NCBI GenBank assembly: GCA_021292105.1
Contig: CM037872.1
Location: forward strand, 14,100,791 to 14,164,790
Direction of reading: 5' to 3'
DNA length: 64,000 nt
Origin: Anadara kagoshimensis
Taxonomy: Eukaryota; Mollusca; Bivalvia; Arcoida; Arcidae
A program made the translations under genes and the position numbers. The notes under the pieces are model-generated. The model saw nothing but the letters and a program-made list of their open reading frames with translations. It was not told where the DNA came from and ran no database searches. Of this stretch, positions 1-25,064 are shown in pieces. Each line of letters starts with the position of its first letter. The stretch's first letter is position 1.

Positions 1-1745
1 TCACAATCATTCCTAAGCTTGATTTACCTTCTCTTAAATTTAGGAAATTTTGGTAATCTCTTTTTGGAACTACTGATGAATATTATTTACAAAAACTAAT
101 GCAAAGGTTTAAATCTAGAAGTGATCTTAAAGCTGACACCTTAAATGCATGAATATCTTGAAAATTAATAAAATTATAAAGATTTGTAGTTTTGCAAAAT
201 TTAAGTTAAGGAAAATCACTACAGCTTTATTATCGGCAGCTCCAAGCTTCGACTCCTTTCCGTTAGCCCAGTCTTAAACTTTCGATTTGTCTGTCTCGCA
301 CATATGTTTCGGAGCTCAACTGCACACAGGCACAAGAAATTCGTGAAGGAATACGCTATGACATTAACAAATGAATGGTCAGGTGTTGGCAGATGTGTGA
401 ATATTTTGGTAACTGCTAGGGTTTTGATCAATCAAACATTTCAAATGAATGGATGACAACGTCGTAAAATCATTTTGACACTGGGAACATGCAGATGCCA
501 TGACAACCCGATATTAGAATAATTAAATAAATAAATAATATCTGGAGATGCCATTATTTAATAATTTATTTATTGCGTATTGAATTGAATATTTTGAGAT
601 GTAACTAATAAGAAAAACTGTCTGGTTTGAAAATGAAAGTCTGCAGAAGAATTCATCTTCTCATTCCAATTAAAGGCGCAAGTTTACAATCCAGATGCAT
701 TTTGATGGCCGTACACTACCATCACGTTTGGTAGAAAATAGTTCAGCTTGCCCCATGTGTCCTCTCTAATATTGTATCTATATCTGTCCTTAATGCATGT
801 GTAGTCACCATAGCAGCCACTGTAAATATGTCTTCGCCTTTGCTCAAAATAGTAAATACATAATTTTTATTGGATGTGAAGAAAGGAGATGAGACGTCCT
901 GGTTTTTTGGATTAAATCGGATGAAATGTCCTTGTGCTGAAACGATATACAATGTATAATATAGTTATTCTATACAACAACTTTAGAACAACAGCACTCA
1001 ACAGGAAGATGTCCAACGACCTTGACCTCTCCAGTTTTTGGGAGTAACATCTGGATGTAAAAACACATCCCTTGTCCCCAAGAACACCTCCAAATATATG
1101 GACACAGTTATCATAAACTACACACCCCGCGGATACGACACTGTGAATTAAATGTCCAAAAATCCTACAGTCCTTTTGCTCTCCGAAAATAACAACTGAA
1201 TGGTTATTGTGGTAACCGAATTCCTAAATGGATAATATGATACTTCCGGTTATATCCTTGAAACCAGAATATAACCATGTAGGATATGATTGATATGAAG
1301 AAATAAATAGGGCTATACATCTAAAACGTAATCTTTACGACCAAGTATGTTCATGGGAAAACGATACAAATACCGACAAGAAGGGTGGATGAAGATATTA
1401 CACGATATCATCATATCAGAACAAAGAAACCCTTATGTTCCTTTAAACTATGCTCGCTTTCTTTTTACCACAGATGTATTTATTTATTTATTTTTTTTTG
1501 ACATTTATGATTAATTTTGTTTGTTGAGCTTGCAGAACATAACTGCAACAGAAAGATAAGAGTTATGCCATATTCTGATGTTTCACCTCCCCACCCCAGC
1601 CAACACACATACACGGCGAATTTGTATTCTACAGACATTGATACTCATTTCAAAATCTAAAGGTCCAAATAAATTCTGACACCAAGAGTAACTCAGTTAT
1701 GTTGATTTAAATCATTAATTAAGATTAAGACGTAAATTGCCTATG
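1..1745. other. Upstream region of gene 1, no gene seen
   Basis: AT-rich sequence with only short chance frames. The first bases (TCACAATCATTCCTAAG) resemble the terminal repeat of family C (27875 and 40673), so the window probably opens inside a copy of that element. A TAAA-rich run lies near 520. Nothing else could be supported. Confidence 0.5.
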
Positions 1746-1987: not shown

Positions 1988-4900
1988 GTATGTTATATAT
2001 GATATTTTACACTTGTGTTCAGAGAAAATATCAATTATCATGAAACACTTTTAAATTGGAATGGTTTTACTTAAGAAATGACGGTTGTGAAACAAATGAA
2101 ATCATAAGAACACTACATAATTGTTTGATTACATCCAAAATTGGGGCCCATTACTATGCGCGTAATTAGCATAGTCAATGTCAATATATTTTGTTTAAAT
2201 TGGTTCCGTACTGTAATAAAATGATTAATCAGTCGCTGTTAAGATTTAAAATTATTTACCTCTAAAAAAATTCATATGTGCATGTAGAAAACATTTTTGC
2301 ATGTTTTAAGACCACTTCTTACCATTCAGATTCCCTTAATCTTCACCTAGACACCATTCACAACAACGAAAATTACGGGGTTTATAACAGAAGCCTTTCA
2401 CTTGTTACTTTGTTATTGTAAAACATTATTATTCATGCCATGGTAGTGATTATAAGAAATGTATTCTTGTTAACATATTACGGTTATTATACAAAATATA
2501 GATACTTTAAATAATTTTAAAAATAAATTGATTGTTACTAAAACAGTTACAAACAATATGATAAAATACTTGAATAAATTGTCGGGATTTAGTTAAAGGG
2601 GAGTAATTCTTATCGATAATTAGAAACCCGTTTTTCGAAGCTATCCTAAGACTAAAATATGTCCTAGCCTAGTCATAAGAAATGTTTTCGTCCTAAGTCA
2701 GTTTGACGATGATGTCACATTTTGAGACAAGTCCTAAATATAATTGTTAACTTAAGACGTATATAGGTGTCCAAAGACCATTTTAGGACAGTCCTAGGTA
2801 ATTTGATAGTCTAAACAAATCAAAGTAACAGGCGTTTATTAACATCAACGACAACGAAATTCAAACATACGTCGAAATATAGTATGACGAGACAGGTATA
2901 ATCTATCAGATTATTTAGATAACATAATCCTAGGATCTTAAGACATAATTCAAGATACACAACTCACCTGTCGAAAGTTTAACAAATAGCTAGCAGAATA
3001 GTTCCAAATCGACAGCTCTTTGTTAGCTAACAGAATTGTTCCAAATCGACAGATCTTTGTTAACTAACTGAATAGTTCCAAATCGACAGCTCTTTGTTAA
3101 CTAACTGAATAATTCGAAATCGCGGCCAGCTCTTCGTTAGCTAACAGAATAGTTCCAAATCGACAGATCTTTGTTAGCTAACAGAATAGTTCCAAATCGA
3201 CACCTCTTCGTTATATAACAGAATAGTTCCAAATCGACAGCTCTTTGTTAGCTAACAGAATAGTTCCAAATCGACAGATCTTCGTTAGCTAACAGAATAG
3301 TTCAAATCGACAGATCTTCGTTAGCTAACAGAATAGTTCAAAATCGACAGATCTTCGTTAGCTAACAGAATAGTTCCAAATCGACAGATCTTCGTTAGCT
3401 AACAGAATAGTTCCAAATCGACAGATCTTCGTTAGCTAACAGAATTGTTCCAAATCGACAGCTCTTCGTTAGCTAACAGAATAGTTCCAAATCGACAGAT
3501 CTTCGTTAGCTAACAGAATAGTTCCAAATCGACAGCTCTTCGTTAGCTAACAGAATAGTTCCAAATCGACAGATCTTCGTTAGCTAACAGAATAGTTCCA
3601 AATCGACAGCTCTTCGTTAGCTAACAGAATAGTTCCAAATCGACAGATCTTCGTTAGCTAACAGAATTGTTCCAAATCGACAGCTCTTTGTTAGCTAACA
3701 GAAAAGTTCCAAATCGACAGATCTTTGTTAGCTAACAGAATTGTACCAAATCGACAGATCTTTGTTAGCTAACAGAATAGTTCCAAATCGACACCTCTTC
3801 GTTAGCTAACAGAATAGTTCCAAATCGACAGATCTTTGTTAGCTAACAGAATTGTACCAAATCGACAGATCTTTGTTAGCTAACAGAATAGTTCCAAATC
3901 GACAGATCTTTGTTAGCTAACAGAATTGTACCAAATCGACAGATCTTTGTTAGCTAACAGAATAGTTCCAAATCGACACCTCTTCGTTATATAACAGAAT
4001 AGTTCCAAATCGACAGCTCTTTGTTAGCTAACTGAATAGTTCCAAATCGGCAGCTCTTCGTTAGCTAACAGAATAGTTCCAAATCGACAGCTCTTTGTTA
4101 GCTAACAGAATAGTTCCAAATCGACAGCTCTTCGTTAGCTAACAGAATTGTTCCAAATCGACAGCTCTTCGTTATATAACAGAATAGTTCCAAATCGACA
4201 GATCTTTGTTAGCTAACTGAATAATTCGAAATCGCCAGCTCTTCGTTAGCTAACAGAATTGTTCCAAATCGAGAGCTTTTTGTTAACTAACAGAATAGTT
4301 CCAAATCGACAGATCTTTGTTAGCTAACTGAATAGTTCCAAATCGACAGCTCTTCGTTAGCTAACAGAATAGTTCCAAATCGACAGATCTTTGTTAGCTA
4401 ACAGAATTGTACCAAATCGACAGATCTTTGTTAGCTAACAGAATAGTTCCAAATCGACAGATCTTTGTTAGCTAACAGAATTGTACCAAATCGACAGATC
4501 TTTGTTAGCTAACAGAATAGTTCCAAATCGACACCTCTTCGTTATATAACAGAATAGTTCCAAATCGACAGCTCTTTGTTAGCTAACTGAATAGTTCCAA
4601 ATCGGCAGCTCTTCGTTAGCTAACAGAATAGTTCCAAATCGACAGCTCTTTGTTAGCTAACAGAATAGTTCCAAATCGACAGCTCTTCGTTAGCTAACAG
4701 AATAGTTCCAAATCGACAGATCTTCGTTAGCTAACAGAATAGTTCCAAATCGACAGCTCTTCGTTAGCTAACAGAATAGTTCCAAATCGACAGATCTTCG
4801 TTAGCTAACAGAATAGTTCCAAATCGACAGCTCTTCGTTAGCTAACAGAATAGTTCCAAATCGACAGATCTTCGTTAGCTAACAGAATTGTTCCAAATCG

Positions 4901-7900
4901 ACAGCTCTTTGTTAGCTAACAGAAAAGTTCCAAATCGACAGATCTTCGTTAGCTAACAGAATAGTTCCAAATCGACAGATCTTCGTTAGCTAACAGAATA
5001 GTTCAAAATCGACAGATCTTCGTTAGCTAACAGAATAGTTCAAATCGACAGATCTTCGTTAGCTAACAGAATAGTTCCAAATCGACAGCTCTTTGTTAGC
5101 TAACAGAATAGTTCCAAATCGACAGATCTTCGTTAGCTAACAGAATAGTTCCAAATCGACAGCTCTTTGTTAGCTAACAGAATAGTTCCAAATCGACAGA
5201 TCTTTGTTAGCTAACAGAATTGTTCCAAATCAACAGCTCTTTGTTAGCTAACAGAATAGTTCCAAATCGACAGCTCTTTGTTAGCTAACAGAATAGTTCC
5301 AAATCGACAGATCTTTGTTAGCTAACAGAATTGTTCCAAATCAACAGCTCTTTGTTAGCTAACAGAATTGTTCCAAATCGACAGCTCTTTGTTAGCTAAC
5401 AGAATAGTTCCAAATCGACAGATCTTTGTTAGCTAACAGAATAGTTCCAAATCAACAGCTCTTTGTTAGCTAACTGAATAGTTCCAAATCGACAGCTCTT
5501 CGTTAGCTAACAGAATAGTTCAAATCGACAGATCTTCGTTAGCTAACAGAATAGTTCCAAATCGACAGCTCTTTGTTAGCTAACAGAATAGTTCCAAATC
5601 GACAGATCTTCGTTAGCTAACAGAATAGTTCCAAATCGACAGCTCTTCGTTAGCTAACAGAATTGTTCCAAATCGACAGCTCTTTGTTAACTAACAGAAT
5701 AGTTCCAAATCGACAGATCTTTGTTAGCTAACTGAATAATTCGAAATCGCCAGCTCTTCGTTAGCTAACAGAATTGTTCCAAATCGAGAGCTTTTTGTTA
5801 ACTAACAGAATAGTTCCAAATCGACAGATCTTTGTTAGCTAACTGAATAGTTCCAAATCGACAGCTCTTCGTTAGCTAACAGAATAGTTCCAAATCGACA
5901 GATCTTTGTTAGCTAACAGAATTGTACCAAATCGACAGATCTTTGTTAGCTAACAGAATAGTTCCAAATCGACAGATCTTTGTTAGCTAACAGAATTGTA
6001 CCAAATCGACAGATCTTTGTTAGCTAACAGAATAGTTCCAAATCGACACCTCTTCGTTATATAACAGAATAGTTCCAAATCGACAGCTCTTTGTTAGCTA
6101 ACTGAATAGTTCCAAATCGGCAGCTCTTCGTTAGCTAACAGAATAGTTCCAAATCGACAGCTCTTCGTTAGCTAACAGAATTGTTCCAAATCGACAGCTC
6201 TTTGTTAGCTAACAGAATAGTTCCAAATCGACAGCTCTTTGTTAGCTAACAGAATAGTTCCAAATCGACAGCTCTTCGTTAGCTAACAGAATTGTTCCAA
6301 ATCGACAGCTCTTCGTTATATAACAGAATAGTTCCAAATCGACAGATCTTTGTTAGCTAACTGAATAATTCGAAATCGCCAGCTCTTCGTTAGCTAACAG
6401 AATTGTTCCAAATCGAGAGCTTTTTGTTAACTAACAGAATAGTTCCAAATCGACAGATCTTTGTTAGCTAACTGAATAGTTCCAAATCGACAGCTCTTCG
6501 TTAGCTAACAGAATAGTTCCAAATCGACAGATCTTTGTTAGCTAACAGAATTGTACCAAATCGACAGATCTTTGTTAGCTAACAGAATAGTTCCAAATCG
6601 ACAGATCTTTGTTAGCTAACAGAATTGTACCAAATCGACAGATCTTTGTTAGCTAACAGAATAGTTCCAAATCGACACCTCTTCGTTATATAACAGAATA
6701 GTTCCAAATCGACAGCTCTTTGTTAGCTAACTGAATAGTTCCAAATCGGCAGCTCTTCGTTAGCTAACAGAATAGTTCCAAATCGACAGATCTTCGTTAG
6801 CTAACAGAATAGTTCCAAATCGACAGCTCTTCGTTAGCTAACAGAATAGTTCCAAATCGACAGATCTTTGTTAGCTAACAGAATTGTACCAAATCGACAG
6901 ATCTTTGTTAGCTAACAGAATAGTTCCAAATCGACAGATCTTTGTTAGCTAACAGAATTGTACCAAATCGACAGATCTTTGTTAGCTAACAGAATAGTTC
7001 CAAATCGACACCTCTTCGTTATATAACAGAATAGTTCCAAATCGACAGCTCTTTGTTAGCTAACAGAATAGTTCCAAATCGACAGATCTTTGTTAGCTAA
7101 CAGAATAGTTCCAAATCGACAGCTCTTTGTTAGCTAACAGAATAGTTCCAAATCGACAGCTCTTCGTTAGCTAACAGAATTGTTCCAAATCGACAGCTCT
7201 TCGTTATATAACAGAATAGTTCCAAATCGACAGATCTTTGTTAGCTAACTGAATAATTCGAAATCGCCAGCTCTTCGTTATATAACAGAATTGTTCCAAA
7301 TCGAGAGCTTTTTGTTAGCTAACTGAATAGTTCCAAATCGACACCTCTTCGTTAGCTAACAGAATAGTTCCAAATCGACAGCTCTTCGTTAGCTAACAGA
7401 ATAGTTCCAAATCGACAGATCTTCGTTAGCTAACAGAATAGTTCCAAATCGACAGCTCTTCGTTAGCTAACAGAATAGTTCCAAATCGACAGCTCTTTGT
7501 TAGCTAACAGAATAGTTCCAAATCGACAGCTCTTCGTTAGCTAACAGAATAGTTCCAAATCGACAGATCTTTGTTGGCTAACAGAATAGTTCCAAATCGA
7601 CAGATCTTCGTTAGCTAACAGAATAGTTCCAAATCGACAGATCTTCGTTAGCTAACAGAATTGTTCTAAATCGACAGATCTTCGTTAGCTAACAGAATTG
7701 TTCCAAATCGACAGATCTTCGTTAGCTACCAGAATTGTTCCAAATCGACAGCTCTTTGTAAGCTAACAGAATTGTTCCAAATCGACAGCTCTTTGTTAGC
7801 TAACAGAATAGTTCCAAATCGACAGCTCTTCGTTAGCTAACAGAATAGTTCCAAATCGACAGCTCTTCGTTAGCTAACAGAATAGTTCCAAATCGACAGC

Positions 7901-10900
7901 TCTTTGTTAGCTAACAGAATAGTTCCAAATCGACAGATCTTCGTTAGCTAACAGAATAGTTCCAAATCGACAGCTCTTCGTTAGCTAACAGAATAGTTCC
8001 AAATCGACAGCTCTTTGTTAGCTAACAGAATAGTTCCAAATCGACAGATCTTCGTTAGCTAACAGAATAGTTCCAAATCGACAGATCTTCGTTAGCTAAC
8101 AGAATAGTTCCAAATCGACAGCTCTTTGTTAGCTAACAGAATAGTTCCAAATCGACAGATCTTCGTTAGCTAACAGAATAGTTCCAAATCGACAGCTCTT
8201 CGTTAGCTAACAGAATAGTTCCAAATCGACAGCTCTTTGTTAGCTAACAGAATAGTTCCAAATCGACAGATCTTCGTTAGCTAACAGAATAGTTCCAAAT
8301 CGACAGCTCTTCGTTAGCTAACAGAATAGTTCCAAATCGACAGCTCTTTGTTAGCTAACAGAATAGTTCCAAATCGACAGATCTTCGTTAGCTAACAGAA
8401 TAGTTCCAAATCGACAGATCTTCGTTAGCTAACAGAATAGTTCCAAATCGACAGCTCTTTGTTAGCTAACAGAATAGTTCCAAATCGACAGATCTTCGTT
8501 AGCTAACAGAATAGTTCCAAATCGACAGATCTTCGTTAGCTAACAGAATAGTTCCAAATCGACAGATCTTCGTTAGCTAACAGAATAGTTCCAAATCGAC
8601 AGATCTTCGTTAGCTAACAGAATAGTTCCAAATCGACAGCTCTTCGTTAGCTAACAGAATAGTTCCAAATCGACAGCTCTTTGTTAGCTAACAGAATAGT
8701 TCCAAATCGACAGATCTTCGTTAGCTAACAGAATAGTTCCAAATCGACAGCTCTTTGTTAGCTAACAGAATAGTTCCAAATCGGCAGCTCTTCGTTAGAT
8801 AACAGAATAGTTCCAAATCGACAGCTCTTTGTTAGCTAACAGAATAGTTCCAAATCGACAGCTCTTTGTTAGCTAACAGAATAGTTCCAAATCGACAGCT
8901 CTTTGTTAGCTAACAGAATATTTCCAAATCGACAGATCTTTGTTAGCTAACAGAATAGTTCCAAATCGATAGCGCTTTGTTATATAACAGAATAGTTCCA
9001 AATCGACAGCTCTTTGTTAGCTACCAGAATAGTTCCAAATCGACAGATCTTCGTTAGCTAACAGAATAGTTCCAAATCGACAGATCTTCGTTAGCTAACA
9101 GAATAGTTCCAAATCGATAGCGCTTTGTTATATAACAGAATAGTTCCAAATCGACAGCTCTTGTTAGCTAACAGAATAGTTCCAAATCAACAGCTCTTGT
9201 TAGCTAACTGAAGAGTTCCAAATCGACAGCTCTTTGTTAGCTAACAGAATAGTTCCAAATCGACAGCTCTTTGTTAGCTAACAGAATAGTTCAAATCGAC
9301 AGATCTCGTTAGCTAACAGAATAGTTCCAAATCGACAGATCTTCGTTAGCTAACAGAATAGTTCCAAATCGACAGCTCTTGTTAGCTAACAGAATAGTTC
9401 CAAATCGACAGCTCTTTGTTAGCTAACAGAATATTCAAATCGACAGATCTTCGTTAGCTAACAGAATAGTTCCAAATCGACAGCTCTTTGTTAGCTAACA
9501 GAATGTTCCAAATCGACAGCTCTTCGTTAGCTAACAGAATTGTTCCAAATCGACAGCTCTTTGTTAGCTAACAGAATGTTCCAAATCGACAGCTCTTTCG
9601 TTAGCTAACAGAATAGTTCCAAATCGACAGCTCTTTGTTAGCTAACAGAATAGTTCCAAATCGACAGCTCTTTGTTAGCTAACAGAATAGTTCCAAATCG
9701 ATAGCGCTTGTTATATAACAGAATAGTTCCAAATCGACAGCTCTTGTTAGCTACAGAATAGTTCCAAATCGACAGATCTTCGTTAGCTAACAGAATAGTT
9801 CCAAATCGACAGATCTTCGTTAGCTAACAGAATAGTTCCAAATCGATAGCTCTTGTTATAACAGAATAGTTCCAAATCGACAGCTCTTTGTTAGCTAACA
9901 GAATAGTTCCAAATCGACAGCTCTTGTTAGCTAACTGAATAGTTCCAAATCGACAGCTCTTCGTTAGCTAACAGAATTGTTCCAAATCGACAGATCTTGT
10001 TAGCTAACAGAATAGTTCCAAATCGACAGATCTTCGTTAGCTAACAGAATAGTTCCAAATCGACAGCTCTTTGTTAGCTAACAGAATAGTTCCAAATCGA
10101 CAGCTCTTTGTTAGCTAACAGAAAGTTCCAAATCGACAGCTCTTGTTAGCTAACAGAATAGTTCCAAATCGACAGCTCTTGTTAGCTAACTGAATAGTTC
10201 CAAATCGACAGCTCTTCGTTAGCTAACAGAATAGTTCCAAATCGACAGCTCTTTGTTAGCTAACAGAATAGTTCCAAATCGACAGCTCTTGTTAGCTAAC
10301 AGAAATAGTTCCAAATCGACAGCTCTTTAGCTAACAGAATAGTTCCAAATCAACAGCTCTTGTTAGCTAACTGAATAGTTCCAAATCGACAGATCTTCGT
10401 TAGCTAACAGAATAGTTCCAAATCGACAGATCTTCGTTAGCTAACAGAATAGTTCCAAATCGACAGATCTTCGTTAGCTAACAGAATAGTTCCAAATCGA
10501 TAGCGCTTTGTTATATAACAGAATAGTTCCAAATCGACAGCTCTTTGTTAGCTAACAGAATAGTTCCAAATCAACAGCTCTTTGTTAGCTAACTGAATAG
10601 TTCCAAATCGACAGCTCTTTGTTAGCTAACAGAATAGTTCCAAATCGACAGCTCTTTGTTAGCTAACAGAATAGTTCCAAATCAACAGCTCTTTGTTAGC
10701 TAACTGAATAGTTCCAAATCGACAGCTCTTTGTTAGCTAACAGAATTGTTCCAAATCGACAGCTCTTTGTTAGCTAACAGAATAGTTCCAAATCGACAGA
10801 TCTTCGTTAGCTAACAGAATAGTTCCAAATCGACAGCTCTTTGTTAGCTAACAGAATAGTTCCAAATCGACAGCTCTTTGTTAGCTAACAGAATAGTTCC

Positions 10901-13900
10901 AAATCGACAGCTCTTTGTTAGCTAACAGAATAGTTCCAAATCGACAGATCTTCGTTAGCTTACAGAATAGTTCCAAATCGACAGATCTTCGTTAGCTAAC
11001 AGAATTGTTCCAAATCGAGAGCTTTTTGTTAGCTAACAGAATAGTTCCAAATCAACAGCTCTTTGTTAGCTAACTGAATAGTTCCAAATCGACAGCTCTT
11101 TGTTAGCTAACAGAATAGTTCCAAATCGACAGCTCTTTGTTTGCGAACAGAATAGTTCCAAATCGACAGATCTTCGTTAGCTAACAGAATTGTACCAAAT
11201 CGACAGCTCTTTGTTAGCTAACAGAATAGTTCCAAATCGACAGATCTTCGTTAGCTAACAGAATAGTTCCAAATCGACAGATCTTCGTTAGCTAACAGAA
11301 TTGTACCAAATCGACAGATCTTCGTTAGCTAACAGAATAGTTCCAAATCGACAGCTCTTTGTTAGCTAACAGAATAGTTCCAAATCGACAGATCTTTGTT
11401 AGCTAACAGAATAGTTCCAAATCAACAGCTCTTTGTTAGCTAACTGAATAGTTCCAAATCGACAGCTCTTCGTTAGCTAACAGAATAGTTCAAATCGACA
11501 GATCTTCGTTAGCTAACAGAATAGTTCCAAATCGACAGCTCTTTGTTAGCTAACAGAATAGTTCCAAATCGACAGATCTTCGTTAGCTAACAGAATAGTT
11601 CCAAATCGACAGCTCTTCGTTAGCTAACAGAATTGTTCCAAATCGACAGCTCTTTGTTAACTAACAGAATAGTTCCAAATCGACAGATCTTTGTTAGCTA
11701 ACTGAATAATTCGAAATCGCCAGCTCTTCGTTAGCTAACAGAATTGTTCCAAATCGAGAGCTTTTTGTTAACTAACAGAATAGTTCCAAATCGACAGATC
11801 TTTGTTAGCTAACTGAATAGTTCCAAATCGACAGCTCTTCGTTAGCTAACAGAATAGTTCCAAATCGACAGATCTTTGTTAGCTAACAGAATTGTACCAA
11901 ATCGACAGATCTTTGTTAGCTAACAGAATAGTTCCAAATCGACAGATCTTTGTTAGCTAACAGAATTGTACCAAATCGACAGATCTTTGTTAGCTAACAG
12001 AATAGTTCCAAATCGACACTCTTCGTTATATAACAGAATAGTTCCAAATCGACAGCTCTTTGTTAGCTAACTGAATAGTTCCAAATCGCAGCTCTTCGTT
12101 AGCTAACAGAATAGTTCCAAATCGACAGCTCTTCGTTAGCTAACAGAATTGTTCCAAATCGACAGCTCTTTGTTAGCTAACAGAATAGTTCCAAATCGAC
12201 AGCTCTTGTTAGCTAACAGAATAGTTCCAAATCGACAGCTCTTCGTTAGCTAACAGAATGTTCCAAATCGACAGCTCTTCGTTATATAACAGAATAGTTC
12301 CAAATCGACAGATCATTGTTAGCTAACTGAATAATTCGAAATCGCCAGCTCTTCGTTAGCTAACAGAATTGTTCCAAATCGAGAGCTTTTGTTAACTAAC
12401 AGAATAGTTCCAAATCGACAGATCTTTGTTAGCTAACTGAATAGTTCCAAATCGACAGCTCTTCGTTAGCTAACAGAATAGTTCCAAATCGACAGATCTT
12501 TGTTAGCTAACAGAATTGTACCAAATCGACAGATCTTTGTTAGCTAACAGAATAGTTCCAAATCGACAGATCTTTGTTAGCTAACAGAATTGTACCAAAT
12601 CGACAGATCTTTGTTAGCTAACAGAATAGTTCCAAATCGACACCTCTTCGTTATATAACAGAATAGTTCCAAATCGACAGCTCTTTGTTAGCTAACTGAA
12701 TAGTTCCAAATCGGCAGCTCTTCGTTAGCTAACAGAATAGTTCCAAATCGACAGCTCTTTGTTAGCTAACAGAATAGTTCCAAATCGACAGCTCTTCGTT
12801 AGCTAACAGAATTGTTCCAAATCGACAGCTCTTCGTTATATAACAGAATAGTTCCAAATCGACAGATCTTTGTTAGCTAACTGAATAATTCGAAATCGCC
12901 AGCTCTTCGTTATATAACAGAATTGTTCCAAATCGAGAGCTTTTTGTTAGCTAACTGAATAGTTCCAAATCGACACCTCTTCGTTAGCTAACAGAATAGT
13001 TCCAAATCGACAGCTCTTCGTTAGCTAACAGAATAGTTCCAAATCGACAGCTCTTCGTTAGCTAACAGAATAGTTCCAAATCGACAGCTCTTTGTTAGCT
13101 AACAGAATAGTTCCAAATCGACAGATCTTCGTTAGCTAACAGAATAGTTCCAAATCGACAGATCTTCGTTAGCTAACAGAATAGTTCCAAATCGACAGCT
13201 CTTTGTTAGCTAACAGAATAGTTCCAAATCGACAGATCTTCGTTAGCTAACAGAATAGTTCCAAATCGACAGCTCTTCGTTAGCTAACAGAATAGTTCCA
13301 AATCGACAGCTCTTTGTTAGCTAACAGAATAGTTCCAAATCGACAGATCTTCGTTAGCTAACAGAATAGTTCCAAATCGACAGCTCTTCGTTAGCTAACA
13401 GAATAGTTCCAAATCGACAGCTCTTTGTTAGCTAACAGAATAGTTCCAAATCGACAGATCTTCGTTAGCTAACAGAATAGTTCCAAATCGACAGATCTTC
13501 GTTAGCTAACAGAATAGTTCCAAATCGACAGCTCTTTGTTAGCTAACAGAATAGTTCCAAATCGACAGATCTTCGTTAGCTAACAGAATAGTTCCAAATC
13601 GACAGATCTCTTGTTAGCTAACAGAATAGTTCCAAATCGACAGATCTTCGTTAGCTAACAGAATAGTTCCAAATCGACAGATCTTCGTTAGCTAACAGAA
13701 TAGTTCCAAATCGACAGCTCTTCGTTAGCTAACAGAATAGTTCCAAATCGACAGCTCTTTGTTAGCTAACAGAATAGTTCCAAATCGACAGATCTTCGTT
13801 AGCTAACAGAATAGTTCCAAATCGACAGCTCTTGTTAGCTAACAGAATAGTTCCAATCGCAGCTCTTCGTTAGATAACAGAATAGTTCCAAATCGACAGC

Positions 13901-16900
13901 TCTTTGTTAGCTAACAGAATAGTTCCAAATCGACAGCTCTTTGTTAGCTAACAGAATAGTTCCAAATCGACAGCTCTTTGTTAGCTAACAGAATAGTTCC
14001 AAATCGACAGCTCTTTGTTAGCTAACAGAATAGTTCCAAATCGATAGCGCTTTGTTATAACAGAATAGTTCCAAATCGACAGCTCTTTGTTAGCTACCAG
14101 AATAGTTCCAAATCGACAGATCTTCGTTAGCTAACAGAATAGTTCCAAATCGACAGATCTTCGTTAGCTAACAGAATAGTTCCAAATCGATAGCGCTTTG
14201 TTATATAACAGAATAGTTCCAAATCGACAGCTCTTTGTTAGCTAACAGAATAGTTCCAAATCAACAGCTCTTTGTTAGCTAACAGAATAGTTCCAAATCG
14301 ACAGCTCTTTGTTAGCTAACAGAATTGTTCCAAATCGACAGCTCTTTGTTAGCTAACAGAATAGTTCAAATCGACAGATCTTCGTTAGCTACAGAATAGT
14401 TCCAAATCGACTCTTTGTTAGCTAACAGAATAGTTCCAAATCGACAGCTCTTTGTTAGCTAACAGAAAGTTTCCAAATCGACAGCTCTTTGTTAGCTAAC
14501 AGAATAGTTCCAAATCAACAGCTCTTTTTAGCTAACTGAATAGTTCCAAATCGACAGCTCTTTGTTATAACAGAATAGTTCCAAATCGACAGCTCTTTGT
14601 TAGCTAACAGAAAGTTCCAAATCGACAGATCTTTGTTAGCTAACAGAATAGTTCCAAATCGACAGTCTTGTTAGCTAACTGAATGTTCCAAATCGACAGC
14701 TTTTGTTAGCTACAGAATAGTTCCAAATCGACAGATCTTCGTTAGCTAACAGAATAGTTCCAAATCGACAGATCTTCGTTAGCTAACAGAATAGTTCCAA
14801 ATCGATAGCGCTTGTTATAACAGAATAGTTCCAAATCGACAGCTTTTGTTAGCTAACAGAATAGTTCCAAATCAACAGCTTTCGTTAGCTAACTGAATAG
14901 TTCCAAATCGACAGCTCTTGTTAGCTAACAGAATAGTTCCAAATCGACAGCTCTTTGTTAGCTAACAGAATAGTTCCAAATCGACAGCTTGTTAGCTAAC
15001 AGAATTGTTCCAAATCGACAGCTCTTGTTAGCTAACAGAATAGTCCAAATCGACAGCTTCGTTAGCTAACAGAATAGTTCCAAATCGACAGCTCTTTGTT
15101 AGCTAACAGAATAGTTCCAAATCGACAGCTCTTGTTAGCTAACAGAATAGTTCCAAATCGACAGCTCTTTGTTAGCTAACAGAATAGTTCCAAATCGACA
15201 GCTTCGTTAGCTACAGAATAGTTCCAAATCGACATCTTCGTTAGCTAACAGAATGTTCCAAATCGAGAGCTTTTGTTAGCTAACAGAATAGTTCCAAATC
15301 GACAGCTCTTGTTAGCTAACAGAATAGTTCCAAATCGACAGCTCTTTGTTAGCTAACAGAATAGTCCAAATCGACAGCTCTTGTTGCTAACAGAATAGTT
15401 CCAAATCGACAGATCTCGTTAGCTAACAGAATTGTCCAAATCGACAGCTCTTGTTAGCTAACAGAATAGTTCCAAATCGACATCTTCGTTAGCTAACAGA
15501 ATAGTTCCAAATCGACAGATCTTGTTAGCTAACAGAATTTCCAAATCAACAGCTCTTCGTTAGCTAACAGAATAGTTCCAAATCGACAGCTCTTCGTTAG
15601 CTAACAGAATAGTTCCAAATCGACAGCTCTTCGTTAGCTAACAGAATAGTTCCAAATCGACAGCTCTTGTTAGCTAACAGAATAGTTCCAAATCGAAGCT
15701 CGTTAGCTAACAGAATAGTTCCAAATCGCAGCTCTTTGTTAGCTAACAGAATAGTTCCAAATCGACAGCTCTTTGTTAGCTAACAGAATAGTTCCAAATC
15801 GACAGCTCTTTGTTAGCTAACAGAATAGTTCCAAATCGACAGATCTTTGTTAGCTAACAGAATAGTTCCAAATCGATAGCGCTTTGTTATATAACAGAAT
15901 AGTTCCAAATCGACAGCTTTGTTATATACAAATAGTTCCAAATCGACAGCTCTTTGTTAGCTACAGAATGTTCCAAATCGACAGATTTCGTTAGCTAACA
16001 GAATTGTACCAAATCGACAGATCTTCGTTAGCTAACACAATTGTTCCAAATCGACAGATCTTCGTTAGCTAATAGAATGTCCAAATCACAGATCTTTGTA
16101 GCAAACAGAATAGTTCCAAATCGACAGATCTTCGTTAGCTACAGAATAGATCCAAATCGACAGATCTTTGTTAGCTAACAGACTAGTTCCAAATCGATAG
16201 CGCTTTGTTATATAACAGAATAGTTCCAAATCGACAGATCTTTGTTTGCGAACAGAATAGTTCCAAATCGATAGCGCTTTGTTATATAACAGAATAGTTC
16301 CAAATCAACAGCTCTTGTTAGCTAACAGAATAGTTCCAAATCGACAGATCTTGCTTAGCGAACGGAATAGTTCCAAATCGACAGATCTTCGTTAGCTAAC
16401 AGAATAGTTCCAAATCGACAGATCTTTCGTTAGCTAACAGAATGTTCAAATCGACAGCTCTTGTTAGTAACAGAATAGTTCCAAATCGACAGATTTCGTT
16501 AGCTAACAGAATAGTTCCAAATCGACAGATTTGTTAGCTAACAGAATAGTTCCAAATCGACAGATCTTTGTTAGCTAACAGAATAGTTCCAAATCGACAG
16601 ATTTGTTAGCTAACAGAATGTTCCAAATCGACAGATTTGTTAGCTAACAGAATAGTTCCAAATCGACAGCTCTTCGTTGCTAACAGAATAGTTCCAAATC
16701 GACAGATCTTCGTTAGTAACAGAATAGTTCCAAATCGACAGATCTTCGTTAGCTAACAGAATAGTTCCAAATCGACAGATCTTCGTTAGCTAACAGAATA
16801 GTTCAAATCGACAGATCTTCGTTAGGTAACAGAATAGTTCCAAATCGACAGATCTTCGTTAGCTAACAGAATAGTTCCAAATCGACAGATCTTCGTTAGC

Positions 16901-19900
16901 TAACAGAATAGTTCCAAATCGACAGATCTTCGTTAGCTAACAGAATTGTTCCAAATCGACAGATCTTCGTTAGCTAACAGAATAGTTCCAAATCGACAGA
17001 TCTTCGTTAGCTAACAGAATAGTTCCAAATCGACAGCTCTTCGTTAGCTAACAGAATAGTTCCAAATCGACAGCTCTTCGTTAGCTATAACTCGACAGCT
17101 TTATGGCAACCAACTGTTCTTAAATTTTAGACACTAGCTATCCATATCTCGGCCACAGAGATTACTCATGTGGCAGGTGTAGCTAGCTAGGAGAAAAACG
17201 GGGCCTAAATTGGGAAGGAAAATAAATTTCAAACACGTTTGTAAATAATTTCATTCCGTTCTTGTTTAAAACGGTGAAAAATTATTCATATACGACGTCA
17301 ATCCATGTGTAAATCATGTAGGACTCTGTGATGGCTGCGATGATTTTCGTCTCCAACATCAAACTGAAATCAGTTAGGTCTTCACAGACGTGAAATTTAC
17401 ATAGCATCATATCCGAATAGTGTTGAAATCTCGCTATCACAGGTTTAAACACAACAGAAGCATTTACTCGCTCGGCTGAGGCTGTCCCGTCCTGCAATAA
17501 TGATTTCTCTCGCAGTGTAGTTCACAACACCCGCTTTAGTGGATTGTACGCCAATACATTGTGTTTGTACAATTTGTTTTTAATTGAAGGCTGTGATTTA
17601 GAATTGGTAAATTTGTTCTTATTACAATCATTATGTCTACAGTCCACGGATTATGTTTTGACACAAATGGAATGTTGTTCTATGGTTCTTGCCTTGAAAT
17701 TTTCACCCTAGAACGTTTAACAGAATTGTTTTATTTTATATCAAAAACAAACATACTAATCCGTGTCCGAATCACAACCCACAAGCAAAGTAAAAACTTT
17801 GGAACTGACAAGTTAGGTTAGACACTTGAACTTCCACCAGGGAAGTGAGGCCGAGTGCTCCGGAATGGTAAGCACCTCCTGTTTAGCTAGCTACACCCGC
17901 CACGTGTGTAATCAAAATTGCGTGAAAGAAACATGGAACTATGGGACGTCAAATATATCCAGGGCAATCCTGGACACAGAGATATCAAACTTATCAACAA
18001 TACTGTGATGACGGCCATAAAACTTTTTAAGGGCCTTGATAAGCCTAGGCTTGCAATATCCCCGAGTCAACAATTTATTGGGAAGCAGCTTACTTCGTTG
18101 TACAAAGTCCCCGTAGTGGGAACAAGCTCTACCATAGCGTATAAATTGGGAAACAAATACACCTAAGCAGGAGAAGCAGGCATATTGCTGCATAAAAAAG
18201 AAAGTTGACAATAAAAAAAATGAAGTCATCACGTTTGTCATAAAGATTCAAATGTAGCCTTTCGTGTGCGTCATAATTCAGGTATAAGTCTAAATATGAA
18301 GCAGAACTTGAGGAATCAGTCGTGTCTTTTATTTAAGCTCACTAGGTTAGATGACATTTACATAGTCTCCAAATTTAGGATTGTTAAGAGACAGAACGTC
18401 ATCTATATATCTGTGTGTTGAGTTGAATGATTTGGCATCAGTCTTCTCTCCAGATTTAACAAGGTTCTGCCTAAATTCTGCAAATTATATAAACCTAAGC
18501 TAAACGGAGACAAAACGCATGATTAAGACTCTTTAATGAACAATTAACGTAATTATCTCTCTTTAGTAATTGTAATATCATAATAACGTTACTAAGGTAA
18601 ATGCTAGCGAAATGTAGTTTTATATATATATTGCATCCTGTAACTAGATTTGGTTCCATATGAAAAACGGAGTGTTCAATGACTAGGTATCCTAAGAAAA
18701 TTATATTAGGGTATAACACTTGTCAACCAATGTAACTTCAGAAAATTGAATAAAGTAAACACGTGTTGCTTTTTATCGTCTAACTGTAATATGTTGTGTC
18801 CTGTTTTTGATGTCAATTCAAGTAACACATTGTAAATGCCTAATGTCAATTTCAGAGTTATCAGACAAACTGGCTTTACAGGGAACAAAGTTAACAGAAC
18901 GAATAGCAGAATTCGAAAAGAACTACATACAGCGTATAACGGCGTTAGAAACAAGGTTTGAAATATATACAAATGCATTGGAAAATAACAATGATTTAGA
19001 AGTAACAGCAGAAATGATGAAAATAGTTATGACATTGCAGGAGAAAATACAAAATATCGAAACGGAGAATACGGAAACACGGCAAACTGTAGGGGGCATC
19101 CAAGGAGAAATTACTGAATTAAATCAAATGGTTAGAAAACACAATGAGAAAATACAAAATGTATCCGATGACACGCGTGAACTTGGACATGAAGTTGAAA
19201 TGAAAATACAACAAAAAGAGCATGACGTTGAGGCGAAAATACAACAACTTGGCCATAATCTTACATCTGCTGATAATGTGCTTATGTCAGAATTAAACCA
19301 TCGAATAAATGCTCTAGAAAATATTACAGACCTTACCAAAGGAAGGCAAAATGGTTAGTATTTTAATTATAAAGTTTATAATTCCATCATGGTACAAAGT
19401 AATTATATGCAACTGGTAAAACATTGAAATTTGTAACAGTCAACGCAACCAAGACTCGTGAACACACGGCAATAGAAAAAATAATGATAAAACAGTTAAA
19501 AAAGACAAACAAAATGTTAATATGTCACTCGGAGACGTGTTTGCACTGATGAATATTAAACTCCCTGGCAAGGTGTAAAACAAATATTGAAAAAATCTTT
19601 TTTGTTTATAAAATGCTATCTTGTTTCCTGGAGACGCAGTCTTCCATACCATATACCATAAAATATATTGATGACTAAAAAGTGAAACACTAGACAGTTA
19701 CCAGACAGTTAGAAATTTTGTCATACTGCTTTATGTTAAATGAATGACCAGTACACCACAAAAACATATATGATGACTTAAGTATCAAATAATTTCGAAA
19801 CTAAAACAAACAGTTGGCTTTAATGTCGAGATGGGTACTTATAAATGTACTTTTTGGTTGGCCTGATTTTGATAAATATGCATTTTAGCATTTACAAATT

Positions 19901-22900
19901 AATTAAAACTACATTTATACAGGGTTTTAAATTAGCATTACCAGGGGGCCAGTACCCCATAGTTCCTAAAAGCAAGTCCGCGTCTCCTTAAATCTTACAA
20001 ATTTTAGGTATTTATTATTATTAGCAATTTTCTACAGTGTGCTCAAAATAGTCCTGCATACATATGGCAGTGTTCATTCTAGAAAGGGGTCATTGATTCT
20101 TTATTTTGCCAATTGAGCTCATTTTTAAAGCCCTAGTGGGCCATATTTAACATTAGATGCGGCCATATTATAGTTGTTATTGTGTTTTAGAGGATTTTGT
20201 TTTGAATGACCCTATCTGAAAAATCCTATCTAGAATGGACAATGAAAATGGTTATCGTTGTTGTTTAGAAGGTTTGCCAGTTCTCTTAGCAATGGGCAGT
20301 GATTTACCCCAGTTTCCTCCATCAACTTCAATTTACGGCGGGTACCAAACATTAAACTACAATTTAAACTGTTAAATTCTTACCGATTTTGATAAAAAAA
20401 ATCGTCATTAATTATTTAAATTTGCCCTCATATAAAGCGATAAAATACTACAAATAGTATTTAAAACTCACAGTAAAGTAAAATCAATATTTTGTTATTT
20501 TACGGCCTCGAGTGGATTCCATTTTGTGATGATTTTTTCACCTTGTCCTTGCGTGAAATTTTGTTTGATGAATCAATGCACTGGCCGGGTTGGCTATGCT
20601 GCCGTATTTTGGACATCCGATTGGATTTAATGATTAGATGGTGTCTAGTGGTTTGATTAGCAAACATATGGAATCTTTGTAACCCCGTAACCCGGCAAAA
20701 AATGAAGTCGGTTTTGAAAAAGTTCCGATTTCCTTCTTTATTATCATTGTAACCTTTGTAACCGTTGTAACCGTGTAACCTGGCAGATTTTTGAAAATTT
20801 GAAAAAATTATCTGTAACTGAGTGTAACTATTTAACCAAAGAGTTACCTTTGTAACCCCGTAACCCGGCAAATAAATGAAGTCGGTTTTAAAAAAGTTCC
20901 GATTTCCTTCTTTATTATCATTGTAACCTTTGTAACCGTTGTAACCGTGTAACCTGGCAGATTTTTGAAAATTTGAAAAAATTATCTGTGACTGAGTGTA
21001 ACTCTATGTAACCAAAGAGTTACCTTTGTAACCCCGTAACCCGGCAAATAAATGAAGTCGGTTTTGAAAAAGTTCCGATTTCCTTCTTTATTATCATTAT
21101 AACCTTTGTAACCGTTGTAACCGTGTAACCTGGCAGATTTTTGAAAATTTGAAAAAATTATCTGTAACTGAGTGTAACTCTATGTAACCAAAGAGTTACC
21201 TTTGTAACCCCGTAACCCGGCAAAAAAATGAAGTCGGTTTTGAAACAAGAAGACATTTGTAACCATGTTACTGTATGTAGCCACTATATAGTCGCGGTTA
21301 CAAATGCTGATACTGCGTTTTTTGCACACATAATTGGACATATATGAGCTACATACCTAATATAATTAAAATTGGTCAAATAATTGTATTTCTAAATTAT
21401 TGTCTGGAAAACAATTTGTCTACAGACGGACGGATGGACATACCCCCACCCAACTTCGTATACGGGAGTTTAATAAGGTAATCTTTTTTATACAGATGGT
21501 ATATATTTTTTTATTGGTTTGATATAATTTTTTCCAGAAGGTGCAATGTACATACGATGGGGAAGAAAAGTGTGTCCTAACGGAACAGAACTGGTATATT
21601 CAGGTAATTATATATACATTAGATAGATGTCTATAGTTTTATTATAATATCATTAAGTTGTGGCTGGTTGAATATAGCTTTACATCGCATGAGGTTTTTC
21701 AGTGACAAATATTGTGAATATCACTCCTGATTAACATTTTTTTATAATTATAGTTGAAATCAGATACACTGAAGCAAGCTGCTTACAAATAAATTGTTTA
21801 CACAAAATACAAGTTTTTGTTTACCATTCTAGGATATGCTGGTGGTAATCATTACACACACAGTGGTGGAGCGGCGGAGTATGTTTGTCTTCCGCCTGAT
21901 CCCGAGTTTGGTGTACAACAAAACGTCGGCTCTTACGGCTACGTATACGGAGCTGAATACGAAACTAATTATTTTGGTGCCAGCACTCATGACCAAGATG
22001 TACCATGTGCAGTGTGTCGGAGTTTGACGAGTACAAGTATGGTCATGATTCCTGCTAAAAGTAGCTGTTATCCTAACTGGAAGCGGGAATATCACGGTCG
22101 TTTAGCTTCCGGTTATAGTGACCACAGTTCGGCTTCACAGTACGTTTGTGTGGATGCAAACCCGGAGGTAAATATTAGTAATAATAGTGATAAATTATAC
22201 TATATATGAGCATACATGGTTCCATACTTAGGTCTCTGTGGGGTCTTGGTGGTCAAGTGGGCTTATTCAAAGAGCCTCACATTACCTGTGTTCGAATCTC
22301 ACTTGGAACAGATATTAGTGTGAGATGTTTTGTAAGTTCGCTTGCCGAAAGTTGGTAGTTTATTAGGACAATCCGGTTTCCCTCACTATTCCTGAACTGT
22401 CCGCTTCGATATAAGTGACAAATTTTTGACTTGGGTCTAACATTCCATTATTCACTCTATTTCCGGGTTTTCATTCAGAACGGAATAGATCGTGGTAGGA
22501 TTTCACCAAAATCTCATAAGTAGTTTATTAACAAATTGTCACCTTAAATGGCCATCTGATTGTGAAATCGTTAATCACAATGCATTTGATATTGTAACCT
22601 TATATGAACTTAGAAGCCTCGGTTTCATTTGGATAGCCTCTGTTTTGTGTCGAACTGGAAACTATTGAGATCACTGTGTCACCTTATGACCTTAGATGCC
22701 TCTGTTTGGTCTATGTAGCCTCTGTTTCATTTGTGTATAGCCTCTGTTTCGTTTCGAACTAGAAAGTACTCAGATAACTGTGTCACTTAATGACCTTATG
22801 TAAACTTCTAGCCTCGTTAAAAACAGCTCACTGTATGTCTAGATTGATTTTGAGTCAGTCTACTGATAAGTATTTGACCTCATGAGTAGAAGTGAACACG

Positions 22901-23576
22901 TTTCAGATTATGTGTTGCCGTTACTTGCATATCATTTGCCAAAGAACGGAAATTTTGTTGAACTTCGATCTGTGGCGATCCAAAAGAAAACCAGACGTTT
23001 TGATTGACAATTGTCATCTTGATTCGAAGACCATTCTGAATTTTTTATTGCAATAGTGACATGCATTTACTATTGACCAACTGATATAAGAAAGGGAAAT
23101 TTTACACAAAATAAACCACATGCACTTTATTCGAAACAAAACAGAGGTTAACTAAATGAAACCGAGGCTTCTCAGTGCATTTAATAAATTAAAGTTCAAG
23201 ATTTCCCCATTTCACCATTAAAACTATGACTGTTAAAGGTAACAAGTTTTATTTTAAAATCGGCTGGAAATTTTGAAGAAATCCTGTGACGATCTAAAAG
23301 AGGGATTGTTTGATTGATAAAACACAAAATAAATGTTACGAACGTTATGTTCCTCACACACTGTATCGATTAAGTTTGCTTTTAAATGATTTTGTTCGAA
23401 TAAAGTTTGAAATGAAATAAAACCGACGTGTCAATATTTGTATCTATATAGGTTCTTTGAAATGGCACCTTAAAGCACTGACGATGTATTTGAAGAAAAC
23501 ATTAATTTTTGTTTTATTCTTTTTACGACGTAAATTATGTTTCTGATCATGTGTTTTATAAATATTGCTGGTGATA

Positions 23577-23647
<71 letters not shown>

Positions 23648-23838
23648 GATCATTTGAGTATTGAGTAACCCGTATTATCATTTTAACATTTCCATTATTA
23701 TTGTTACAGGTTGTGATTGGTGGAAGCGCAGACAATAATGGAAAATTATTTTACCCCGTCAGGGCTGAATGTGGTGCATTAAAGTGTCCACCGTACCAGA
23801 GTGATAAAGAGATGTTATGTGTGGTTTGTACACGTTAG
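1861..23838 (+). CDS. Short-chain collagen C4-like secreted coiled-coil protein (five coding exons)
   Basis: Joining exons 1861-1987, 18856-19353, 21538-21603, 21833-22167 and 23710-23838 gives 1155 bases, that is 384 residues and a stop. All joins use GT-AG sites with compatible phases (1,1,1,0). Residues 1-20 are a hydrophobic signal peptide ending near CSFNA/SPTD. Residues 43-208 form a charged, Gln/Glu/Ile-rich coiled coil. Residues 209-384 form a compact domain with ten cysteines (221, 249, 289, 292, 309, 336, 363, 368, 379, 382) and the motifs YIRWGR, CPNGTELVYSG, HYTHSGGAAEYVC, HDQDVPCAVC, NGKLFYPV and CVVCTR. These match, from memory, predicted molluscan 'short-chain collagen C4-like' proteins. 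No Gly-X-Y tract is present, so the coiled coil probably drives oligomerisation where a collagen helix might otherwise do so. The ligand and role are unknown. An extra small exon in the 16.9-kb first intron cannot be excluded, but none is needed for the frame. Confidence 0.85.
2044..2958. other. Start of gene 1 intron 1, no gene seen
   Basis: Non-coding intron sequence. From about 2640 to 2940 the words TCCTAAG, GTCCTA and CTTAAGAC recur on both strands, suggesting a decayed inverted-repeat element. Boundaries could not be set. Confidence 0.4.
2959..2983 (+). mobile_element. Left terminal repeat of a family A element, next to the satellite
   Basis: ACCTGTCGAAAGTTTAACA just before the first satellite unit matches the terminal repeat of the dispersed family A elements (for example 33445-33679 and 45490-45707). 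This suggests the satellite begins inside such an element. Confidence 0.6.
2984..17090. repeat. 37-bp satellite array, about 380 copies
   Basis: A 37-bp monomer is repeated head to tail for about 14.1 kb. Its constant parts are GTTCCAAATCGACAG and the 10-bp palindrome GTTAGCTAAC, followed by AGAAT. The monomer differs mainly at AGCTC/AGATC, TTTG/TTCG and AATAG/AATTG, and by a TATATAAC form replacing the palindrome. Units with GAATAATTCGAAATCGCC mark longer-range duplications. No frame stays open across it. The array lies wholly inside intron 1 of gene 1. Family A element sequence flanks both ends. Confidence 0.97.
17091..17160 (+). mobile_element. Internal family A remnant after the satellite
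   Basis: After the last full unit, the text CTAGCTATCCATATCTCGGCC closely matches the interior of the family A copy at 33445-33679 (near 33583). The far terminal repeat was not found. A short match to family B (GGTGTAGCTAGCTAGG) follows at about 17177. Confidence 0.5.
17161..17740. other. Intron 1 of gene 1, no feature seen
   Basis: Ordinary AT-rich intron sequence after the satellite, with only chance open frames. No domain or exon signature was recognised. Confidence 0.4.
17741..18160 (+). repeat. Dispersed repeat family B, long copy
   Basis: The copy begins near AAACAAACATACTAATCCGT. It contains GGGAAGTGAGGCCGAGTGCT, GGTAAGCACCTCC, TAGCTAGCTACACCCGCCAC and a long tail. It is collinear with the copy at 54335-54735 over some 400 bases, including GTCAACAATTTATT and GTAGTGGGAA in the tail. 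Short open frames on both strands here are by-products of the repeat. Confidence 0.75.
18161..18855. other. End of gene 1 intron 1, no feature seen
   Basis: AT-rich intron sequence leading to the exon 2 acceptor. No repeat or gene was recognised. Confidence 0.4.
18856..19353 (+). CDS. Gene 1 exon 2: coiled-coil region
   Basis: The acceptor is TTTCAG|AG and the donor is G|GTTAGT. The exon encodes residues 43-208, starting ELSDKLALQG. It is rich in Glu, Gln, Lys, Asn and regularly spaced Ile/Leu/Met, which is typical of a long coiled coil. Near its end there is a local internal repeat (EVEMKIQQKEHD, then DVEAKIQQLGHN). There is no cysteine in this segment. The open frame extends upstream of the acceptor to an ATG at 18807, but the cysteine-containing start there looks non-coding. 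Confidence 0.85.
19354..20680. other. First part of gene 1 intron 2, no feature seen
   Basis: Non-coding, AT-rich sequence with no recognised repeat or exon before the 176-bp tandem repeat. Confidence 0.4.
20680..21245. repeat. 174-176-bp tandem repeat, about 3.3 copies
   Basis: AATGAAGTCGGTTTTGAAAA starts at 20701, with equivalent points at 20875, 21051 and 21227. Each unit is itself rich in GTAACC-type words (GTAACCCCGTAACCCGG, CTTTGTAACCGTTGTAACCG), so it may have grown from a shorter repeat. The copies are nearly identical, which implies recent duplication. It lies in intron 2 of gene 1. Confidence 0.9.
21538..21603 (+). CDS. Gene 1 exon 3: start of the C4-like domain
   Basis: A 66-base micro-exon lies between TTTTTTCCAG and GTAATT. 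With the shared G it encodes EGAMYIRWGRKVCPNGTELVYS (residues 209-230). The YxRWGRxxCPxGTxLVYSG stretch is the most recognisable signature of the molluscan short-chain collagen C4-like domain. It falls below ordinary ORF length limits and was found by reading the splice sites. Confidence 0.9.
21833..22167 (+). CDS. Gene 1 exon 4: core of the C4-like domain
   Basis: The acceptor is CATTCTAG|GA and the donor is GAG|GTAAAT. The exon encodes residues 231-342, from GYAGGNHYTHSGGAAEYVC through HDQDVPCAVCRS and IPAKSSCYPNW to SASQYVCVDANPE. It contains six of the ten cysteines. It ends in phase 0. Confidence 0.92.
22240..22460 (+). mobile_element. tRNA-derived SINE, diverged copy
   Basis: A box A-like TGGTGGTCAAGTGGGC and a box B-like GTGTTCGAATCTC are followed by CGCTTGCCGAAAGTTGGTAG and CCGGTTTCCCTC, then a tail ending near TTTTTGACTTGGGTCTAA. 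The order and spacing match the copies at 47478 and 63063. The conserved centre resembles molluscan SINEs of the RUDI/V-SINE kind; this name was not verified. It lies in intron 4 of gene 1. Confidence 0.75.
22560..22830. repeat. Decayed tandem repeat rich in TAGCCTCTGTTTC
   Basis: Blocks with AGCCTCTGTTTCATTTG, GTCGAACTGGAAACTA and ACTGTGTCACCTTATGACCT recur about every 110 bases with many changes. An inverted relative (AACAGAGGTTAACTAAATGA then AACCGAGGC) lies near 23140. It is non-coding intron 4 sequence. Confidence 0.5.
22831..23570. other. Intron 4 of gene 1, little seen
   Basis: AT-rich intron sequence. The inverted relative of the preceding repeat near 23140 is the only structure noticed. 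Confidence 0.35.
23573..23645. repeat. (AT)n microsatellite
   Basis: Nearly pure AT dinucleotide run with one interruption, about 60 bases before the last exon of gene 1. The Tyr-Ile frame across it is an artefact. Confidence 0.95.
23710..23838 (+). CDS. Gene 1 exon 5: end of the C4-like domain and stop
   Basis: The acceptor is TTGTTACAG|GT. The exon encodes VVIGGSADNNGKLFYPV, then a segment with CGALKCPPYQ, and ends MLCVVCTR followed by TAG at 23836-23838. It completes the second half of the domain with four cysteines. Confidence 0.9.
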   Translation, partial: VVIGGSADNNGKLFYPVRAECGALKCPPYQSDKEMLCVVCTR

Positions 23839-23911
23839 ACTTAAACAATGTAAGGTATTCTGTAATTTACATCAAACTATGTATTGTCTCCCTCAGTGCC
23901 ATATAATATCT

Positions 23912-23917
23912 ATTAAA
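23912..23917 (+). terminator. Candidate poly(A) signal of gene 1
   Basis: ATTAAA lies 74 bases after the stop codon, just before a copy of dispersed repeat family B. A canonical AATAAA occurs later at about 24664. Either could be used. Confidence 0.3.
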
Positions 23918-23939
23918 TGTCGCTGTCTCCATCGTTCAT

Positions 23940-24750: not shown

Positions 24751-24751
24751 C

Positions 24752-25060: not shown

Positions 25061-25064
25061 CGTG

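Follow-up and report, generated by a model that had tools for sequence, protein, structure and literature searches.

A 37-bp tandem array that probably grew inside a miniature inverted-repeat element of Anadara kagoshimensis, with sister arrays from the same family

What did the 37-bp tandem array in a 64,000-nucleotide stretch of the bivalve Anadara kagoshimensis genome grow from? The stretch (assembly GCA_021292105.1, contig CM037872.1, here C16:14100791-14164790) is called the window throughout. The first duplicate of a satellite is hard to see after the edges of an array have vanished, and at this locus both edges can be read. An earlier note, made from the window's letters, had proposed a satellite born inside an inverted-repeat element, family A, entered through the terminal repeat and left through the interior. 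We arrive at the same origin with a probability of roughly 0.93: the array is best explained as the tandem expansion of consensus positions ~35-81 within one copy of family A, a ~218-bp element that we read as a Tc1/mariner-like miniature inverted-repeat transposable element (MITE). The genome scanned comprised 1.115 Gb in 36 contigs; among contigs C1 to C19, the 15 with stated sizes measure 38 to 76 Mb.

Family A at both edges of the array

Tandem Repeats Finder (TRF) and wrap-around alignment place 384 full units on the forward strand at 2987-17087 (TRF period 37, 384 copies, 92% matches), derived from the element's positions ~35-81 minus ~10 bp. On the left, 2955-2986 (+) is the left terminal inverted repeat (TIR) of the hosting family A copy; on the right, the interior of that copy resumes at 17080-17155 (+), ending CTAGCTATCCATATCTCGGCCAC. 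The left-edge word CTGTCGAAAGTTTAACA stands at 2968-2984 without mismatch, and if up to three mismatches are allowed the window has 14 occurrences where 0.52 would be expected. The right-edge word CTAGCTATCCATATCTCGGCC stands at 17134-17154, and at the same tolerance occurs four times (three of them elsewhere) against 0.00 expected.

One consensus was built from 21 copies, the window copy at 45488-45707 and 20 fetched copies, in whose choice the monomer played no part. Against this consensus the left edge (2955-2996) matches positions 12-37 at 23 of 26 letters and the right edge (17080-17160) matches at 60 of 75. The edges of two related arrays on contig C9, here C9a and C9b, behave alike: the C9a left edge matches at 36/41, scoring 52 where the corresponding C16 stretch scores 37, and the right edges of C9a and C9b match at 38/44 and 20/23. 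No shuffle in 2000 did as well for any of these edges. The left TIR, the unit and the next interior stretch follow in element order, on a single strand and in phase; the unit stops at the element's CTCGTTA, and the right edge goes on GTTAGCTATAACTCGACAGCTTT, matching the element. When the passage from TIR into monomer was searched for with up to three mismatches, 200 places were found genome-wide and none in a reversed control. The entry and exit described in the earlier note are thus borne out. Family A is common: the ~50 kb that remain of the window once the array is set aside hold it at about ten places, and an unrelated satellite could in principle have dropped between two of its fragments and come to resemble them by chance. 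Such an accident would have to produce a unit and two edges that are colinear, contiguous and in phase, with no match among the shuffles of either edge and a TIR-to-monomer passage absent from the control, and we regard its probability as negligible.

The unit itself also resembles the passage from terminal repeat to interior, as had been suggested. It matches positions 35-64 of a 40-copy consensus at 27 of 30 letters without gaps (0/2000 shuffles), a figure to be read knowing that 18 of the 40 copies came from a search with a monomer-like pattern; the set is made up of two window copies, the 20 fetched copies and 18 of the 20 places from that search, the other two (L065 and L067) being arrays and excluded. 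The C9 unit matches the 21-copy consensus at 22/25 (1/2000 shuffles as good). The case nevertheless rests on the edges and on colinearity, because the monomer alone matches weakly.

The 21-copy consensus has the form TACAGTACAGGCC...GGTCTGTACTGTA, with TIRs on both sides; the left TIR reads TACAGTACAGGCCTGTCGAAAGTTTAACACTAAGCTAACG, the ends are CAGTACAG and the target sites are TA. Ends beginning with CAGT are typical of Tc1/mariner-type elements, which target TA, and family A is a short element with inverted ends of this kind. A genome search with the copy at 45488-45707 gave 2170 candidates, 40 of which were scored and yielded 52 rows. Run over the window, with the array masked, and over 200 kb of sampled sequence, a profile of the 40-copy set gave 33 rows, and its reversed control gave none; of the 16 random 10-kb stretches sampled 3 contained copies, as did 2 of 4 stretches adjoining the window. 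On its length, TIRs, TA sites and high copy number, family A is classed here as a putative Tc1/mariner-like MITE. A Helitron or pearl element with internal repeats is ruled out by the TIRs and TA sites, as elements of that type are defined by having neither TIRs nor TA duplication. Within the window, the copy singled out in the earlier note at 33445 is real and complete, with a single unit (33443-33683, +; nhmmer E 8.6e-50, profile positions 2-222). The search query at 45488-45707 (-; E 1e-60) is likewise complete and single-unit, and a shorter copy at 44915-45082 (+; E 1.3e-21, profile 2-221) has both ends. On C3, four similar TIR-to-interior matches, three of them identical (GTTTAGCACTAAGC...), lie within 0.54 Mb (C3:26547707-27079753), which suggests local duplication.

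Single-unit relatives and three paralogous arrays

The ordinary copies of the element that were fetched hold one unit. This is true of all 20 copies fetched with the query and of 18 of the 20 places fetched from the TIR-into-monomer search, the remaining two being arrays with other units. Of the single copies seen, the nearest relative is L056 on C10, a complete element that agrees with C9a at 53/60 over the left edge and first unit together and at 77/89 over the right edge. Its TTAGCTA words are spaced 47 bp apart, which is the unit plus 10, and it has two ACAG words. The first duplication may be pictured between two short direct repeats: one, (T)TAGCTA, lies where the TIR ends on its inner side, and the other, TTAGCTA, 47 bp further inward. 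Ten bp would then have been dropped from the unit, and in a copy of the L056 type, the one copy from which this is read, they could have been lost between the ACAG words.

A pattern for the tandem junction itself, with up to three mismatches, found 124 places genome-wide and none in the control. The C9 and C16 arrays account for 86 of the 100 matches listed, and the other 14 have different letters before AGCTAAC; two of these 14 were fetched, and both are single-unit. Two places on C15 that resembled a second tandem junction proved to be single-unit copies with small insertions.

The array lies in a block, covering at least window 1-20161, that is paralogous with gaps to C9:70.632-70.641 Mb and C9:70.661-70.668 Mb; window 98-275 has no C9 match in these two array-bearing blocks. 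The same array stands between the same edges at all three loci, with 384 full units on C16, 88 in C9a and 9 in C9b, where the right edge has been further shortened by deletion. Flank identity is 89-90% when C16 is compared with C9; C9a and C9b agree with each other at about 95%. A third C9 relative loses homology at window 1266 and has no array site. Altogether C9:70.632-70.693 Mb holds three relatives spaced ~28-29 kb apart and a 73% fragment. Since the three arrays share flanks, they spread by block duplication, and we describe one birth followed by length changes by locus and block duplication across the three loci found. A unit-2 variant common to all three arrays suggests that the array was already tandem when the blocks separated. 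Private variants have accumulated as well: T at position 8 occurs in 16 of 90 C9a rows and in none of 386 on C16, and TA at positions 1-2 in 23 of 386 C16 rows and in none of 90 in C9a. Within the C16 array, exact duplications of up to 680 bp suggest that blocks of units were added recently, and no higher-order period was detected there, the best lags being barely above the median. Unequal exchange together with the copying of unit blocks would account for such growth.

The lengths of tandem arrays are generally error-prone in assemblies, and collapsed or inflated repeats could have shaped the counts given here. The array lengths do come from the assembly alone. The edges, however, recur at three loci with a flank divergence of 5-11%, and private unit variants set C16 and C9 apart, so that an assembly artefact in array length strikes us as improbable. 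Still more improbable is that an older satellite was captured by the element instead of being born in it, although capture has a published precedent (PMC12628747, as excerpted). A captured satellite does not explain the single unit of the fetched copies, nor the different units of the two exceptions. Eight arrays with different unit boundaries on one element, described below, are impossible from one captured satellite, and the searches, which were incomplete, located the 37-bp unit at no more than three loci, all paralogous.

Several observations weigh against birth inside family A or against the steps attached to it. The C16 unit compared with the 21-copy consensus gives 25/29, equalled by 3 of 2000 shuffles, which is weak on its own (21/26 and 9/2000 once the palindromic ends are removed). 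In a looser test one shuffle in 1000 equalled the doubled monomer and none equalled the edges; with family A copies left in, 26, 9 and 16 per 1000 window segments scored at least as well as the monomer, left edge and right edge. The host copy has no right TIR, its right end being absent beyond ~17155: a breakpoint at 17155-17160 is followed, by eye, by what seems to be another inverted-ended repeat. The breakpoint letters are identical at the junction in C9a and C9b, and 17201-27106 contains no family A profile match. Units other than the second carry the unit-2 variant too (on C16, 53 of 386 rows have T at position 12), so its sharing could be coincidence, and the loss of 10 bp is read from one diverged relative. 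A genome search with ten units listed just the two C9 loci, with two of three candidates scored and the window's own array unlisted, and is thus incomplete. Among the places fetched, no locus of the 37-bp type with exactly two or three units was seen. The check that the earlier note proposed, aligning monomer and edges to a consensus and looking for other unit numbers, came out in its favor; single-unit copies and paralogues with 88 and 9 units were found, and the smallest multiples were not. Its larger claim, a satellite born from a MITE, stands as far as birth inside family A goes, with flanks in element order; the absent right end and the three paralogous loci qualify the rest. With a mean pairwise unit identity of 0.92 the C16 array is long, head-to-tail and near-identical, as a satellite should be. 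Amplification over many loci is another mark of a satellite, and here at least three paralogous loci were found and no dispersed family was seen in the incomplete searches, so that the term is generous.

Other family A arrays and a nested insertion

Family A has spawned at least seven other arrays with differing boundaries, whose units of 58, 83, 77, 51, 63, 72-80 and 32 bp derive from the left arm, the interior or the right arm. We label the 37-bp array A1, the 58-bp array on C5 A2, the 83-bp array at C1:26.59 Mb A3, the next four, all on C1, A4 to A7, and the 32-bp array A8. A2 and A3 were met in the 20 places fetched from the TIR-into-monomer search, for which 100 of the 200 matches were listed. 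A4 to A7 came from a spaced pattern of three TTTAACACT words, which has 6604 places against 163 in the reversed control; the 100 matches listed all lie in the first 15 Mb of C1 and form five clusters, four of them family A arrays (77, 51, 63 and 72-80 bp). A8 lay in the stretch fetched for the left edge of A6. The eight units A1-A8 match consensus stretches that, sorted by position, are 2-40, 2-68, 2-81, 18-70, 35-67, 83-108, 159-220 and 162-217, each with 0 of 1000 shuffles as good.

A2 consists of 84 units of 58 bp (C5:49060761-49065627) inside a family A copy that has both ends; the whole stretch runs C5:49060746-49065784 (L093, L069, L065, L070, L094), and its edges align at 60/70 on the left and 168/192 on the right, first and last units included. 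A3 starts at an element end at C1:26593351, and its exit, close to C1:26600020, leads to a right half that has eroded (matching at 115/145, with an end piece at 20/22); the middle of the array was read in part only. A6 is the 63-bp right-arm array. The interior of A7 (C1:8717101-8728499) is mostly known from pattern matches alone. A8 (C1:7677603-7679860; L108, L104) adjoins A6 and consists of 32-bp units from the interior (TRF 70.6 copies), its left edge lying beyond the sequence reached.

Three further arrays were not counted. The fifth cluster, a 30-bp array of TTTAACACTGACTATGATAAGTTACCATGA at C1:14725711-14726109, has a 14-bp match that 2 of 1000 shuffles equal, and nine of those 14 letters are demanded by the selecting pattern itself. 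The window's own 42-bp (55194-58080; 69 copies, 96% match) and 66-bp (36118-36420) arrays do not belong to family A, their matches being equalled by 969 and 37 of 1000 shuffles respectively.

At A4 (C1:4910038-4911013; L097, L102) the seeding event is spelled out. An outer left part is followed by tandem left arms, a complete inner copy and the outer remainder; the inner copy sits in an internal TA of the outer one, with the left arm tandemised between. The outer copy is split as ...GCCGC-TA-TCTATC... with TA on either side, a target site duplication seen at this one locus. The remainder was predicted after its first five letters, TCTAT, had been seen, and was then found: C1:4910896-4911013 matches consensus 114-220 at 93/107 and has its own right end, and the outer left part, TA and remainder align as one copy at 165/192. 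Nesting is established for A4 alone. The units of A3, A4, A5 and A7 (C1:26.59, 4.91, 5.85 and 8.72 Mb) can all be read as starting at a terminal TA and stopping at an internal one; the fit is looser for A6, and A1, A2 and A8 (37, 58 and 32 bp) do not fit. For A3, A5 and A7 the junction alone was seen, no outer remainder being shown: the right neighbour of A5 is another family A copy, and A7 has neither a clean left junction nor a clean outer remainder. The shared terminal TA is moderate evidence at most, because a 226-bp consensus holds 20 TA words.

How the 37-bp unit was seeded we infer. One possible alternative to duplication between the TTAGCTA words is a nested self-insertion, giving a unit that spans element end and internal TA in the way seen at C1:26.59 Mb, with the TIR part later deleted between TTAGCTA words. 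The nested structure of A4, and three more arrays with units running from an element end to an internal TA, lend this some credit. At C16 and C9, however, neither a terminal CAGTACAG between units nor an outer remainder was seen, and one extra step is required; we hold this route possible but rather unlikely for A1. Duplication between the direct repeats, by slippage or unequal exchange, remains the seeding step that we favor for A1. No function is indicated, and no special MITE function would be needed in general: short internal repeats, and self-insertion into TA at one sister locus at least, could each give the first duplicate. A broader hypothesis is that family A is a recurrent satellite nursery, in which insertion into the internal TAs of sister copies creates head-to-tail arm duplicates and, from them, dozens or more independent arrays ranging from a nested copy to many kb. 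We give this about even odds.

Known systems and neighboring sequence

The birth of satellites from MITEs is already established, by Xstir, miDNA4 and others (PMC12628747, PMC9659126); the comparisons in this paragraph draw on excerpts of the sources. In miDNA4 of Xenopus tropicalis (Scalvenzi and Pollet 2014, via the same two sources), as in family A, a Tc1/mariner-type MITE carries tandem repeats in its interior, their copy number varies, and short direct repeats are invoked. The family A unit is instead the element's own sequence, arrays occur in single copies and units vary by locus; transposed copies with variable unit number, the miDNA4 pattern, are not what the three 37-bp arrays with their shared flanks represent. 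Xstir (Hikosaka and Kawahara 2004, via PMC12628747) is similar in that tandem repeats come from a MITE interior and that MITE, array and composite forms exist side by side. Its proposed seed is a stem-loop between neighboring elements, whereas one family A locus shows a nested TA insertion. Tetris/TIR-220 of Drosophila virilis, whose arrays grew inside a foldback element (PMC4079207), likewise places large arrays inside a non-autonomous DNA transposon, but its repeats are part of its structure, whereas the ordinary family A copies seen hold one unit. Double insertion of a transposable element as a satellite seed (which PMC7214746 attributes to McGurk and Barbash 2018) also obtains expandable direct repeats from repeated insertion of one family. 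It yields dimers at one target site, unlike insertion within a sister copy, where the unit is one element arm. The tandem-repeat MITEs and pearl elements of bivalves, likened here by titles and table rows and not by sequence, also combine MITE-type elements with tandem repeats in molluscs.

Among the titles and abstract openings covered, which include few subscription papers, there is no report of one MITE family giving many differently bounded arrays, nor of a nested MITE seed; this gap is weak evidence of novelty. What is new is thus not MITE-to-satellite birth but the repeated births and the preserved self-insertion seed. Family A has several arrays whose edges can still be read, three paralogues that go back to a single birth (9, 88 and 384 units) and one seeding event written out in full, so that satellite birth is visible at several stages in this genome. 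Rival seeding models, namely slippage at short repeats, nested insertion and capture, can be weighed against each other for a single element within a single genome.

In the sequence around the array, a Pfam scan of eight open reading frames gave matches below curated cut-offs only, and none at all for six of the eight. A 199-codon open frame at window 18759-19358, within the duplicated block, has weak Pfam matches, many of them to coiled-coil families and all below cut-off. Window 17726-18481 is a dispersed repeat, the sole part of a 2501-base query (14,054 candidates) covered by 37 of the 40 places scored, and its 94-95% identity indicates that it probably spread recently.

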